A stretch of 64,000 nt of DNA from Cephaloticoccus capnophilus (GTDB lineage Bacteria > Verrucomicrobiota > Verrucomicrobiia > Opitutales > Opitutaceae). The notes under the pieces are model-generated. The model saw only the letters and a program-made list of their open reading frames with translations, ran no database searches and had not been told where the DNA came from. The first letter of the stretch is position 1. Every line of letters begins with the position of its first letter. This document shows positions 26,463 to 64,000 of the stretch, in pieces. The position numbers and the translations under genes are program-made. The stretch covers positions 1-64,000 of the forward strand of contig NZ_LSZP01000004.1 in NCBI RefSeq assembly GCF_001580045.1, given 5' to 3'.

Positions 26463-26501
26463 GGCGTGCCGCCTCGGCCAGTGACCGCTCTCTCTGAGCT
26501 T

Positions 26502-26793
26502 CCACTGCGCGTGGTGCGGCAGCGTGTCGCTGCACCCATTCACAGAGCCGCTTGGTTGCCGTGCATTCGCACAGTAACCAAGCGGCTCTGTGAAAAGGAA
26601 CCCAAGCTTGGAGGTGGGAGTTTACTGGTGATTTTTCCCACCTCGCCCGAGCGGGTTATTACTCTACTTTCCCTGTCGCAACGCGACAGGGGGGAATGCT
26701 TTCAAATTTGGGAATTGGTTTCGTCGCGAAGCGACGGGGGCAATTCCCAAATTGAACGGGTGCAGCGACACGCTGCCGCACCACGCGTAGTGG
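26502..26793. repeat. Mosaic hairpin element, copy A (complete, long form, 292 bp)
   Basis: Bounded by 39-bp terminal inverted repeats (26502-26540 and 26755-26793, 37 of 39 positions complementary). Each end itself contains two hairpins: CCAC/GTGG and GCAGCG/CGCTGC. Internal modules in order: a 17-bp perfect stem (26541-26557 with 26576-26592); GAGGTGGGA/TCCCACCTC (26611-26619 with 26636-26644); a core CCCTGTCGC-AAC-GCGACAGGG (26671-26691); and a 13-bp stem AATTTGGGAATTG/CAATTCCCAAATT (26705-26753) enclosing CGTCGC-GAA-GCGACG. There is no credible gene inside. It fills most of the parB-secG gap; in the remaining 189 bp (26794-26982) I see nothing. Confidence 0.85.
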
Positions 26794-41759: not shown

Positions 41760-41989
41760 CCACTACGCGTGGAGCGGTGGCATGCTGCCACTCCCATTTA
41801 AATCACGATTTGGCTCGGTCGCTTCGCAACCGAACACAAATCGTGATTTTGAAATAAGCCCTCCGTTTCTGTCGCAACGCGACAGGGGAGAGTGCTTTCA
41901 AATTTGGGATTTCGCTTTCGCGCGATAGCGCGTTGCGAAATCCCAAATTGAATGGGTGCAGCGACACGCTGCCGCCCCACGCGTAGTGG
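41760..41989. repeat. Mosaic hairpin element, copy B (complete, short form, 230 bp)
   Basis: Right end 41951-41989 is nearly identical to copy A's. The left end starts CCACTACGCGTGG, but its second hairpin is GTGGCA-TGC-TGCCAC instead of GCAGCG-TGT-CGCTGC. Internal stems: AAATCACGATTT/AAATCGTGATTT (41800-41811 with 41838-41849); core CTGTCGC-AAC-GCGACAG (41869-41885); and a 15-bp AATTTGGGATTTCGC/GCGAAATCCCAAATT (41901-41915 with 41935-41949) enclosing CGCGC-GATA-GCGCG. It lacks the ~80-bp spacer of copies A and E. No gene inside. Confidence 0.85.
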
Positions 41990-42171: not shown

Positions 42172-42180
42172 CTGTCGCTG

Positions 42181-42258
42181 GAAGCTCGGAAGCTCGGAAG
42201 CTCGGAAGCTCGGAAGCTCGGAAGCTCGGAAGCTCGGAAGCTCGGAAGCTCGGAAGCT
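42181..42258. repeat. 8-bp tandem repeat array (GAAGCTCG, about 9.75 units)
   Basis: The octamer GAAGCTCG repeats without a mismatch nine times and ends in a partial unit GAAGCT. It is intergenic, between the alpha-mannosidase and the TonB receptor, about 135-190 bp before the receptor's possible starts. Copy-number change would alter spacing in the receptor's upstream region. Confidence 0.9.
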
Positions 42259-53224: not shown

Positions 53225-53453
53225 CCACTACGCGTGGGGCGGCGGTCAGTGACCGCTTCCATTTAAATCGCGATTGTGCCCGTCCGCTTCGCGTCCGAAC
53301 CCAATCGCGATTTTGAAATGCCCCTCTCCAATCCTGTCGCAACGCGACAGGGGGAATTCTTTCAAATTTGGGATTTCGTTTTCGCGCGATAGCGCGATGA
53401 GAAATCCCAAATTGAATGGATGCAGCGACACGCTGCCGCACCACGCGTAGTGG
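53225..53453. repeat. Mosaic hairpin element, copy C (complete, short form, 229 bp)
   Basis: Left end starts CCACTACGCGTGG at 53225 and carries GCGGTCA-G-TGACCGC (53242-53256) in place of the GCAGCG hairpin. Right end 53415-53453 matches copy A except for one base (GGATG for GGGTG region). Internal stems: AAATCGCGATTG/CAATCGCGATTT (53265-53276 with 53302-53313); core CCTGTCGC-AAC-GCGACAGG (53333-53351); AATTTGGGATTTC/GAAATCCCAAATT (53365-53377 with 53401-53413). It sits between the convergent HAD and M16 genes, 31 and 16 bp from their stops. Confidence 0.85.
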
Positions 53454-53469
53454 AACAGACGCTGGGGGC

Positions 53470-56262
53470 TTACGCGTTTTCGGGGGAGAGGGTGAGGCGG
53501 AGACGTTGGTCGGGGCGTAGGTAGTGCTTTGCGAAGCTGGCGAGGTCGCCGCGGGTGACGGCATCGATGCGTTGGGCGTAGTCCGCAGAGTCGTCGGCGG
53601 GGCGGCCGTAGAGGGTGTTGAGCGCGGCTTGGAGGGCGCGCTGGGAGTTGGTTTGCAGGCCCATCTGGTGGCCGGCTTTGAGGCGGGTTTTGCAGCGGCT
53701 GAGTTCGCTGGGCGTGACGCCGCCGCGGGCGACTCTAGCGATTTCGGCTTCGATTTCGCGGAGGACGGCGGGTTCTTTCCCGGGTTCGGTGCCTGCGTAA
53801 AAGTAAAACATGCTGGTATCGGTGCCGATGATACGGGAGGAGCGCACGTAGTAGGCGAGGGCGAGGGTTTCGCGGACGCGCTCAAAGAGGCGGGAGCTCA
53901 TACCGCTGAAGAGCTCGTCTAAGACTTCGCTGACGAAGAAGCCGTCGTCACGGATTGAGGGCGCGGGGTAGGCTTCGAAGAGGACGGCTTGTTGGCCGGG
54001 GCGGCGTTCTGAAAAAATGCCGGTGTTTGGGCTGGGGGGCGCAGTCACTGCGTTCGTTGTCGCCGCTTTGGCGGCGCTGAGTGCTTTGGGCTGTTTTTGG
54101 GGTGCCGAGTGTGTGGGCGCCGGCTGCGTGAGTGGCGACAGCTCGTGTCGTGGGGATGCGCTGCTTTGCGGTAAGTTTTTGAGGAGCTTTTCCGCGCTGC
54201 GGGTCATGCGTTTTACGTCGAAGTCTCCGGTGGCGACGAGGACGAGGTTTTGCGGCGCGAGGAGCTGTGTGTGCAGGGCGGCGAGGTCGCGCGCGGTGAT
54301 CTTGCTAAGCGTGTCTTCGCTGCCGTTGGGGCCAGTGGCGAGCGGGTGTGCGCCGAAGAAGTGGCGGCGCAGTTGGCGTAGGCCGTAGCTTACGGGGTTG
54401 TCGTTGCTGTCTTGGAGTGCGGCGAGCTGGGCGCTGCGCTCTTGCTCTAGGGTGCTTTTGCGAAAGGTGGGGCGCAGGACGGCGTCGGCCAACAGTTCGT
54501 GGGCCAGGGGCAGGTCGCTGGGCAGGACTTCGAGCGCGAGGCCGAAGGCGTTGTTGCCTGACATGGGGTAGAAGCTGCCGCCGACTTCTTCGATTTTTTG
54601 GGCGACTTGGGCGGCGCTGTTTCGCTGCGTGTCTTTGGTGAGCAGTGTGGTGAGCAGGCTGGTCGCGCCGCGCCGGTCGGCGGGTTCGCAGTAGCCGCCG
54701 CCGAGCCCGCAGAGGCGGAGGTGGACGTTGGGGAGCGAGGCGTCGGGGCGGAGCAGGAGGCGCGCGCCGTTGGGGAGCGTGTGCGCGGTAAAGGCGGGGG
54801 TGGGCGTCGAGCTTGGCGGCGGTTTTGGGCGTGTTTTTTTACTCTGCGGCAGAGCGGGTTTGGCGTCCTTAGCTGGCTTGGGGTTGAGCGAGACGGTGCT
54901 GGAGCTTTGTGGGATGAGGTAGCGACGGAGTGCGTGTTGGATATCGGCAGGGCGGAGCGCCGCGAGTCGCTCGAAGTAGCTTTGCGCAAAGTGCAGGTCG
55001 CCGATGACGACTTCGGCGGCACCGAGTCGGGAGGCTTGGCCGCTGACGGTTTTGCGGGTGTTGATCTCGCCCACGACGAGTTGGCGGATGGCTTTGCGGA
55101 GTTGGGCGGGGCGAAAGCCGCTGCGTTTTACGCGGTCGAGCTCGGCGTGGATGGCGGCGAGGGCCGCGTCGCGTTTGGCGTCGTCACAGGTGAAGGCTAT
55201 GTAAAAGAGGCCGTTGGAGCCTGGGGCCCAGCTTGTGGCATCGATGGCGTGGACGAGGCCTTTTTTCTCGCGGACAGTTTGCCAGAGTATCGAGCTGTCG
55301 CCGCCACCGAGGAGGAGGGCGAGGAGGTTGAGCGCGGGCGTGTCGGGGTGGCTGAGGCCGGGGATTGCCCAAGCGATGCCCGCGCGGGTGAGTTCGACAT
55401 CGGCACTTTGCTCCCAAGTGCGCGGGGCGAGTTGTTGCGGCTCGGGCGGGATGTACAGCGGCGGGAGCGGGAGGCGCGGCGCGGCGGCAAAGTGGGTTTC
55501 GGCTTCGTGGGCGATTTGCTCGGGAGAAACGTCGCCGGTGACGATTAAGACCATGTTGGCCGGGACGTAGCGGGCGCGATGGTAGCGGACGAGTTCGTCG
55601 TGCGTGATGCGCTCGAAGAGTTCGCGGTGGCCGATGATGGGCTGCGCATAGGGGTGCTGGCGAAAGGCAGTAGAGAAGAGGGCTTGGGCGAGGCGTTGGT
55701 CGGGGTCGTCCTCGCCCATCGCGATTTCGCGGAGGATGACGTCGCGCTCTTTTTCGGCTTCGGCTTTGTCGAGCGTGGGGCGCAGCGCCATGCTAGCCAA
55801 GATGTCGATGGCGAGTGGCGTGTGCTCGCTGGGCAGGTCGATGTAGTAAACGGTGCGGTCGAAGGTGGTGTAGGCGTTGATCGCGCCGCCGTGGGCTTGG
55901 ACTTGCTCGGAGATTTGGCGAGCGCTGCGGGGGCGCGGGGCTCGCGTGCCTTTGAAGAGCATGTGCTCTAGGTAGTGCGAGAGGCCGCTGCCGAGTGCCG
56001 TGTCTTCGTGGATGGAGCCGGTCTTTACCCAGAGCTGGATGGAGGCGACGGGGGCGCGGTGGTCGGGCTTGATGAGGAGCGTGAGCCCGTTTGGGAGAGT
56101 GCGGCGGATGACTGGCTCGGCGGCGAGCGGCGCGAGGAGTGCGAGGTCAGGATTACCTTTTGGGCGCAGGGCGGCGGCGGCGAGTTCGGCGCGGCGCAGG
56201 GGGCACGCGGCGCGAGGGGCGCGGGTTGCGGGAGTGCGGGCGGGCCGCGTGGGCTTAGGCAT
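53470..56262 (-). CDS. Fused two-domain M16 (pitrilysin-type) zinc metallopeptidase
   Basis: 930 residues with two complete M16 units. The first carries the inverted zinc motif HYLEHMLFKGT (HxxEH) and downstream Glu in KERDVILREIAMGEDDPDQ, so it is catalytic. The second (from about residue 490, HTLPNGARLLLRPDASLPNV) lacks HxxEH but keeps the Arg/Tyr-type segment (ALAYYVRSS), as in inactive partner domains. Two-subunit M16B enzymes usually encode these separately; here both are in one chain with Ala/Pro-rich linkers. The N-terminus begins with a Pro/Ala/Arg-rich stretch and no clear signal peptide. Its start overlaps the end of the Minf_1886 gene by 8 bp. Confidence 0.92.
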   Translation of the reverse strand: MPKPTRPARTPATRAPRAACPLRRAELAAAALRPKGNPDLALLAPLAAEPVIRRTLPNGLTLLIKPDHRAPVASIQLWVKTGSIHEDTALGSGLSHYLEHMLFKGTRAPRPRSARQISEQVQAHGGAINAYTTFDRTVYYIDLPSEHTPLAIDILASMALRPTLDKAEAEKERDVILREIAMGEDDPDQRLAQALFSTAFRQHPYAQPIIGHRELFERITHDELVRYHRARYVPANMVLIVTGDVSPEQIAHEAETHFAAAPRLPLPPLYIPPEPQQLAPRTWEQSADVELTRAGIAWAIPGLSHPDTPALNLLALLLGGGDSSILWQTVREKKGLVHAIDATSWAPGSNGLFYIAFTCDDAKRDAALAAIHAELDRVKRSGFRPAQLRKAIRQLVVGEINTRKTVSGQASRLGAAEVVIGDLHFAQSYFERLAALRPADIQHALRRYLIPQSSSTVSLNPKPAKDAKPALPQSKKTRPKPPPSSTPTPAFTAHTLPNGARLLLRPDASLPNVHLRLCGLGGGYCEPADRRGATSLLTTLLTKDTQRNSAAQVAQKIEEVGGSFYPMSGNNAFGLALEVLPSDLPLAHELLADAVLRPTFRKSTLEQERSAQLAALQDSNDNPVSYGLRQLRRHFFGAHPLATGPNGSEDTLSKITARDLAALHTQLLAPQNLVLVATGDFDVKRMTRSAEKLLKNLPQSSASPRHELSPLTQPAPTHSAPQKQPKALSAAKAATTNAVTAPPSPNTGIFSERRPGQQAVLFEAYPAPSIRDDGFFVSEVLDELFSGMSSRLFERVRETLALAYYVRSSRIIGTDTSMFYFYAGTEPGKEPAVLREIEAEIARVARGGVTPSELSRCKTRLKAGHQMGLQTNSQRALQAALNTLYGRPADDSADYAQRIDAVTRGDLASFAKHYLRPDQRLRLTLSPENA

Positions 56263-59504: not shown

Positions 59505-59626
59505 CTTGTCGCAACGCGACAAGAGAAGGGGGCTTCAAATTTGGGAATTGGTTTCGTCGCGAAGCGACGGGGCCAATTCCCAAATTGAACGGGTGCAGGC
59601 ACAGCCTGCCGCCCCACGCGTAGTGG
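59505..59626. repeat. Mosaic hairpin element, copy D (right half only)
   Basis: Begins at the core, here CTTGTCGC-AAC-GCGACAAG (59505-59523), then AATTTGGGAATTG/CAATTCCCAAATT (59538-59550 with 59574-59586) enclosing CGTCGC-GAA-GCGACG, then the right end (59588-59626), whose hairpin is GCAGGC-ACA-GCCTGC instead of GCAGCG-ACA-CGCTGC. The left half is missing. It ends 66 bp from the cbiO stop. The inverted 19-bp match to 34082-34100 lies just after it (59647-59665). Confidence 0.8.
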
Positions 59627-59691
59627 GAAAAAGCGTATCAGCGCGCTCGCGTTTGAAACGGGAACCGACCCGAGCTTAGGGCTGATGCGAG

Positions 59692-62276: not shown

Positions 62277-62435
62277 AGGCTGCTCAGCCTGCTGGGCGCG
62301 AAGCGCCGACTCCAGCGCAATAGTGCCAAGCCCCCCGCCGCCGCCCTTTGCTAACGCCGCCAGCCGAGCCGTCGCCGCCACGCTTGAAACGGTTCACGAC
62401 CGTCCGCGCGGTCAGTGTCAGAGGTCACAGACCAT
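62277..62435. other. Upstream region of the Ni/Co transporter, no riboswitch recognised
   Basis: I see no cobalamin or NiCo riboswitch motif here. A partial version of the gene-end palindrome (GCGGTCAGTG at 62408-62417) precedes repeat copy E. The remaining segment to clpB is taken by copy E. Confidence 0.5.
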
Positions 62436-62595
62436 CCACTGCGCGTGGGGCGGCAGCGTGTCGCTGCACCCATTTACCGAACGCTTGGTTGCCGTGCGCA
62501 AGCACGGCAACCAAGCGTTCGGTAGAAAGGAGCCCAAACTTGGAGGCGGGAGTTTACTGGTGATTTTTCCCACCTCGCCCAAACGGGTTATCACT

Positions 62596-62600
<5 letters not shown>
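62436..62600. repeat. Mosaic hairpin element, copy E (left half, truncated at clpB)
   Basis: Left end 62436-62474 matches copy A's. The first internal stem is 23 bp and perfect (62475-62497 with 62502-62524) with a GCAA loop. The conserved ~80-bp spacer of the long form follows, including GAGGCGGGA/TCCCACCTC and GGGTTATCACTCTACTTTCC. The core, last stem and right end are missing: similarity stops at the clpB 3' end, whose final codons and TAG lie in repeat sequence. Confidence 0.82.

Positions 62601-64000
<1,400 letters not shown>

Follow-up and report, generated by a model that had tools for sequence, protein, structure and literature searches.

ERIC and Correia-type MITEs are intergenic inverted-repeat elements of 100–300 bp that are able to fold as RNA. 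The BOX, RUP and SPRITE repeats of Streptococcus pneumoniae are likewise intergenic stem-loop elements, present in high copy number, modular in build, biased toward convergent genes and devoid of a transposase of their own (PMC3049150). REP/REPIN sequences with their RAYT genes, among them the GTAG and CGTC repeats, are short extragenic palindromes occurring in hundreds of copies, and O. terrae, belonging to the same phylum as the genome studied here, is reported to be highly enriched in GTAG repeats (PMC3733652, PMC3116915). A different precedent comes from the hairpins of rRNA genes under template switching, where two-sided changes, several at once, are seen together with in-place loop inversion; Monttinen and Löytynoja consider compensatory change combined with loop inversion the strongest possible support for template switching, and only 6 such cases were found in rRNA genes (PMC8794818). 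Covariation, in turn, is the standard evidence for functional RNA structure.

We analyzed a repeat of about 300 bp within a 64-kb stretch of DNA, referred to as the window. The repeat is an intergenic, non-coding array of hairpins, arranged in a complete copy in the order terminal hairpin, end hairpin, left stem, linker, core hairpin, right stem, end hairpin and terminal hairpin. The window holds three complete copies (A, B and C) and two partial ones (D and E), with segment 26541-26592 forming the left stem of copy A:

26502-26793, + strand: copy A, complete, between parB (stop 26462) and secG (start 26944)
26502-26514, + strand: copy A, left terminal hairpin CCAC-TGCGC-GTGG
26519-26533, + strand: copy A, left end hairpin GCAGCG-TGT-CGCTGC
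26541-26592, + strand: copy A, left stem CACAGAGCCGCTTGGTTGCCGTGC-ATTC-GCACAGTAACCAAGCGGCTCTGTG, arms of 24 nt around the loop ATTC
26593-26671, + strand: copy A, linker, containing CACCTCGCCCGAGCGGGTT
26672-26690, + strand: copy A, core hairpin CCTGTCGC-AAC-GCGACAGG
26705-26753, + strand: copy A, right stem AATTTGGGAATTGG...CAATTCCCAAATT
26762-26776, + strand: copy A, right end hairpin GCAGCG-ACA-CGCTGC
26781-26793, + strand: copy A, right terminal hairpin CCAC-GCGTA-GTGG
41760-41989, + strand: copy B, complete, with a short AT-rich left stem
53225-53453, + strand: copy C, complete, with a short AT-rich left stem
59505-59626, + strand: copy D, core and right half, lacking the left stem and left end
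62435-62606, + strand: copy E, left half only (ends, left stem and linker), lacking the core and right half

Copies B and C thus represent a shorter form of the element than copy A. In copy E the left stem (62475-62524) forms a perfect hairpin, TACCGAACGCTTGG.../...CCAAGCGTTCGGTA, and the right stem of complete copies has the general form AATTTGGGA...TCCCAAATT. At the position of the linker segment CACCTCGCCCGAGCGGGTT of copy A, the usual form in the window genome is CGCCCAAACGGGTT, and CGCCCAAATGGGTT is found in Cephaloticoccus primus. The two ends of copy A form terminal inverted repeats of about 40 bp that are 95% complementary. The stems of the right-side terminal hairpin covary (CCAC/CCCC/GCCC/GCAC/CCGC) around a loop of the form GCG[T/C/G]A, and the terminal tetranucleotides are variable. 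Outside the ends, for example at 59627-59671 and 26475-26500 of the window, we observed further repeated sequence (AAAAAGCGTATCAGCGCGG...GTTTGAAACGGGAAC; AAGCTCAGAGAGAGCGGTCACTG; AGGTCTGTGACCTC) that stands on either side of many elements, which suggests additional outer modules.

Calling elements by the core hairpin plus the right stem, we obtained 94 oriented elements in the 1.23 Mb read of the window genome (59%) and 122 in the 1.57 Mb read of C. primus (about 65%), corresponding to about 160 and 185 elements when scaled to the genome; these 216 copies stem from one genome per species. This core-based calling was used in place of an nhmmer count of right modules, in which left halves match in reverse and lead to double counting. 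A first BLAST search of the window's own genome (2.09 Mb) had yielded 213 candidates, the merged repeat sequence amounting to 2.4% of the part read. Among 18 relatives, BLAST detected the element in one, Cephaloticoccus primus CAG34 (Opitutaceae), a gut symbiont of turtle ants that shares its genus with the window genome. A covariance model of the right half gave no match in 148 other Opitutaceae genomes, under strict filters that scored 23 candidates per genome and that distant forms could escape. The element was likewise without match in the plasmid collection searched and in viral contigs searched by exact pattern, and Rfam 15 returned no match at the gathering score in the window, copy A yielding only sub-threshold matches to generic hairpins. 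The element is a new family of a known kind, the structured intergenic repeats; at about 2% of the genome in these turtle-ant gut symbionts, it is undescribed in the literature searched.

Compared with the described systems, the Cephaloticoccus repeat shares all of the properties listed above for BOX, RUP and SPRITE, but is unrelated to them in sequence and module layout, combining a fixed hairpin order with varying stems in which pairing is kept; the text of the paper on the pneumococcal repeats makes no mention of covariation or compensation (PMC3049150). Short palindromes, extragenic location and copies in the hundreds are also features of REP/REPIN, whereas the Cephaloticoccus repeat measures about 300 bp, has seven hairpins and almost no solitary units, and is not linked to a RAYT gene. 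The GTAG/CGTC tag of REP sequences is not constant in it, G-T-A-G being just one of several forms of the terminal loop, and in neither genome is a RAYT gene flanked by the repeat. As for MITEs, the terminal inverted repeats are present and a target-site duplication is not, with no excess of matching flanks at k=2–9 among 130 elements; in this the repeat differs from ERIC and Correia-type MITEs, which it resembles in intergenic location, size and inverted repeats. Terminal units of the kind that an autonomous partner with shared ends would carry are very few outside the elements in the parts of the two genomes read.

The original prediction held that the stems covary between copies, differing in sequence while pairing is kept. 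All stems that it quoted are present in the sequence: the first internal stem is CACAGAGCCGCTTGGTTGCCGTGC/GCACAGTAACCAAGCGGCTCTGTG in copy A and TACCGAACGCTTGG/CCAAGCGTTCGGTA in copy E, the left stems of copies B and C are set apart by two matched pair changes (A-T to G-C and T-A to G-C), the core of copy D is CTTGTCGC/GCGACAAG as opposed to CCTGTCGC/GCGACAGG, the last stem alternates between AATTG/CAATT and ATTTC/GAAAT, and the end hairpins GCAGCG, GCAGGC, GTGGCA and GCGGTC all occur. With many more copies, covariation proved to lie far above chance. For the left stems (n=55), two-sided changes were found at 16 of 23 pairs, with 96.2% of cells paired compared to 79.8% in shuffles and 201 two-sided cells compared to 64.6 ± 5.5. 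For the right halves (n=58), RNAalifold predicts 30 pairs, 16 of which carry two-sided changes; 98.4% of cells were paired (85.8% in shuffles) and 218 were two-sided (53.9 ± 8.0). In both cases none of 500 shuffles reached the observed covariation score, and shifting the partner by 1–3 columns lowered pairing from 96–98% to 23–46%. Over five hairpins in the 216 copies, both sides differ from the commonest pair in 755 cells that still form Watson-Crick pairs, compared to 126 one-sided cells; as the copies are related and not independent, these tallies count cells and overstate the number of events. The tally was made on anchored stems, unconstrained nearest-copy folds having been dropped because of spurious linker pairs. 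Several left-stem pairs show three or more standard pair types, and the right-stem alleles, two in each genome, almost always differ between the species by matched changes (C-G/G-C, T-A/C-G, C-G/T-A). The hairpins thus covary base pair by base pair, at most of the variable pairs and in both species, bearing out the claim that the fold is maintained as such. A number of common left stems contain segments mismatched over several bases and have multiplied nonetheless; in these, one arm has apparently been replaced through recombination.

Part of this variation arises by exchange of whole modules. The type of the right stem is independent of the end hairpin about 10 bp away (p=0.47) and of the left stem type (p=0.48), and in C. 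primus the core type is independent of the right stem (p=0.69), whereas the types of left stem and left end hairpin stay linked (p=1e-11). Several of the contrasts first cited as repeated two-sided changes are accordingly modules reassorted between copies. Left and right end hairpins of the same type are avoided, occurring in 4 of 59 elements of the window genome (14 expected; 0 of 5000 shuffles as low) and 5 of 78 of C. primus (9.6 expected; P=0.005), possibly owing to the instability of long, perfectly inverted ends. Linkage equilibrium among stem and end types and the presence of just two right-stem alleles per genome would agree with a few ancestral stem types that merely recombine, all covariation then being block replacement. 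Such swapping of blocks lacking pair-level covariation is not what we find: two-sided changes of single pairs occur inside modules, including a double change private to one copy (AATTAGGG/CCCTAATT), and the left-stem pairs with three or more standard types likewise speak against it. These within-module changes refute module swapping in its pure form, which we therefore regard as very improbable, while free reassortment itself stands.

The age of the variants differs between the two classes of change. Among changes private to one copy, 58 of 78 were one-sided and 20 of 78 two-sided, whereas the shared variants, calculated as the 216-copy totals (755 and 126) minus the private changes (20 and 58), comprise about 735 two-sided and about 68 one-sided cells (~803 deviating). 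Recent changes are thus one-sided for the most part, and older ones nearly all two-sided, indicating that one-sided variants have been repaired or purged. The same predominance of one-sided private changes indicates that copying between arms is not immediate, and that pairing is regained over time and not always in one step. Of the 20 private two-sided changes, 9 are transversions, which are unable to pass through a G-T pair, and at the observed one-sided rates, arms mutating independently of each other should yield hardly any private changes of the two-sided kind.

Loops are informative in this respect because inverting a loop requires several simultaneous point changes. The left-stem loops of C. 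primus form reverse-complement pairs, namely TTC (42) and GAA (15), CTTCT (3) and AGAAG (3), TCC (4) and GGA (1), and TAC (3) and GTA (1). In two backgrounds we found left-stem hairpins of 52–53 nt whose sole difference is GAA versus TTC, and right stems that differ solely by GCA versus TGC; minimal pairs differing in a single base are uninformative and were left uncounted. Inversion extends to the core hairpins, affecting the loops GTT and TTC, and one pair of copies in the window genome differs by an inverted 21-nt hairpin core (CCTCTGCGCGTCGCGCAGAAA versus TTTCTGCGCGACGCGCAGAGG). These minimal pairs display the hallmark of template switching, a loop inverted in place within an intact stem. 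In rRNA genes compensatory change with inversion is very rare (PMC8794818), whereas loop inversion is common in the Cephaloticoccus repeat, which moreover is dispersed in many copies per genome that serve as internal replicates. The inversions indicate a DNA-level process, either template switching or hairpin inversion. Of the alternatives initially offered, RNA or single-stranded DNA function or template-switch correction between arms, the loop and core inversions directly support a DNA-level process of arm copying or inversion, and selection on the fold may act as well.

Since in-place template switching predicts the observed inversions, we favor arm copying or inversion at extruded hairpins as a contributor to the maintenance of the fold, next to selection or a mobility filter, and assign this reading a probability of roughly 55%. 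The hairpins would extrude from single-stranded DNA, most probably at replication forks, where the nascent strand would sometimes copy the opposite arm or the opposite strand by template switching, thereby restoring pairing after a one-sided mutation and flipping loops. Recombination between copies would spread and shuffle the modules, and pairing copies may be further favored by a presumed spread as a folded non-autonomous mobile element or by tolerance at gene 3′ ends. Against arm copying alone, selection on the fold also predicts the loss of one-sided variants, and loop inversion could proceed via recombination between arms instead of replication. The stronger version, in which the structure owes its maintenance mainly to the replication machinery, through arm templating with frequent loop inversion, rather than to selection on RNA, appears tentative and rather doubtful to us. 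If it is true, strong covariation, which is usually taken to prove a functional RNA, would arise here in the absence of one. Covariation of that strength, found together with loop inversions in many replicate copies per genome, makes the family well suited to testing whether arm copying in the DNA can mimic or assist selection.

The position of the elements relative to genes would be expected if they lay in 3′ untranslated regions and formed mRNA 3′-end structures or transcription stops, with ordinary compensation under selection on the transcribed RNA. None of the called genes (simple codon-usage calls) contains an element, the median distance to the stop codon is 42 bp in the window genome and 56 bp in C. 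primus, and elements concentrate in convergent gaps, of which 34 of 126 carry one in the window genome and 50 of 158 in C. primus, compared to 5 of 124 and 7 of 160 divergent gaps, respectively. Where both flanks of an element can be aligned to C. primus, 12 of 26 gaps hold an element in both species, which also suits this explanation. The orientation of the element, however, is not tied to that of the gene (same/opposite 30/18 and 27/32), and at orthologous filled sites it is opposite in 8 of the 10 unambiguous cases; the parB-secG gap of copy A, for example, is also filled in the C. primus ortholog, with the element reversed. These shared reversed sites are consistent with old insertions followed by inversion of the element between its ends, or with repeated insertion at preferred sites. 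Mobile repeats of the pneumococcus show the same bias toward 3′ ends and convergent genes (PMC3049150), and as they share it, the bias may reflect mere tolerance. We rejected an intrinsic terminator, since in the window genome the right flank is A-rich and the left flank T-rich, a polarity opposite to that of a terminator that leaves the exit side without U on both strands.

The pairing itself carries a strand signal that bears on the same explanation. In the right stems the + strand gives the better fold (88 versus 5 and 106 versus 4 copies), with G-T pairs exceeding A-C pairs in + orientation, as selection on RNA would predict. The − strand, on the other hand, gives the better fold in the left stems of C. 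primus and in the AT-rich ones of the window genome, so that both halves, read from core to end, prefer the outgoing strand, and over the whole element the opposite preferences cancel, leaving none. The preference of the stems is unexpected from a strictly symmetric DNA process, and may stem from the common descent of the alleles. Because of this possible ancestry and the lack of a net preference, we do not take the asymmetry between G-T and A-C pairs as proof of RNA. Considering also that no Rfam family was matched and that loop inversions are unexpected under it, selection on the transcribed RNA seems unlikely to account for the repeats.

Arm copying is favored here alongside such filters, one of which could be movement itself. 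If the element moved as folded single-stranded DNA, in the manner of REP/REPIN or the ends of IS200/IS605, only folding copies would give progeny, and pairing in old copies would reflect recent movement. Complete elements indeed dominate, with 379 terminal units inside elements versus 16 outside in the parts read, about half of the 16 resembling chance matches, and the missing target-site duplication is as in single-strand transposition. Some sites lack the element in C. primus (for example items 27 and 42 of the alignable gaps); sites filled in one species and element-free in the other fit insertion or deletion after the split. A movement-only filter, however, leaves unexplained the private two-sided changes that arose in individual copies, the terminal tetranucleotides vary, and the 12 shared sites suggest that many copies predate the split of the species. 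No transposase linked to the elements was found in the parts read of either genome. The sole Y1 match of the window genome is the following:

contig C59, 24300-25500: IS200/IS605-type insertion, beside an apparent TnpB gene

The distance from it to the nearest called element exceeds 13 kb, and no Y1 match was obtained in C. primus, leading us to reject a RAYT/Y1 transposase as the mobilizer. Taken together, we consider it quite unlikely that a mobility filter by itself maintains the pairing.

Several minor observations concern neighboring or derived sequences. On contig C32 of the window genome, near 55103-55150, two element ends are fused as a long hairpin (CCACTCCGCGTGGGGCGGCAGCG-ACA-CGCTGCTGCCCCACGCATAGTGG) with the interior missing. 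A tandem array of about 10 copies of the 8-base unit GGAAGCTC (42180-42258 of the window) follows copy B at a short distance and lies upstream of the gene for a TonB-dependent receptor. Both genomes also harbor another repeat, a small one of about 45 nt consisting of two hairpins and an A-rich linker (CCAAATAAAA), the first with the loop CAACGA and the second with TGC or GAA. Its stems are variable but paired, with GCGGGC in one species and AGCCGC, GCGCAC and GCGGCC in the other. It occurs at 29 and 61 places, mostly in or beside the large elements and often within an end hairpin, as exemplified by two inserts:

L096, 13068: insert in the end hairpin of an element
L128, 11761-11890: insert in the core region of an element
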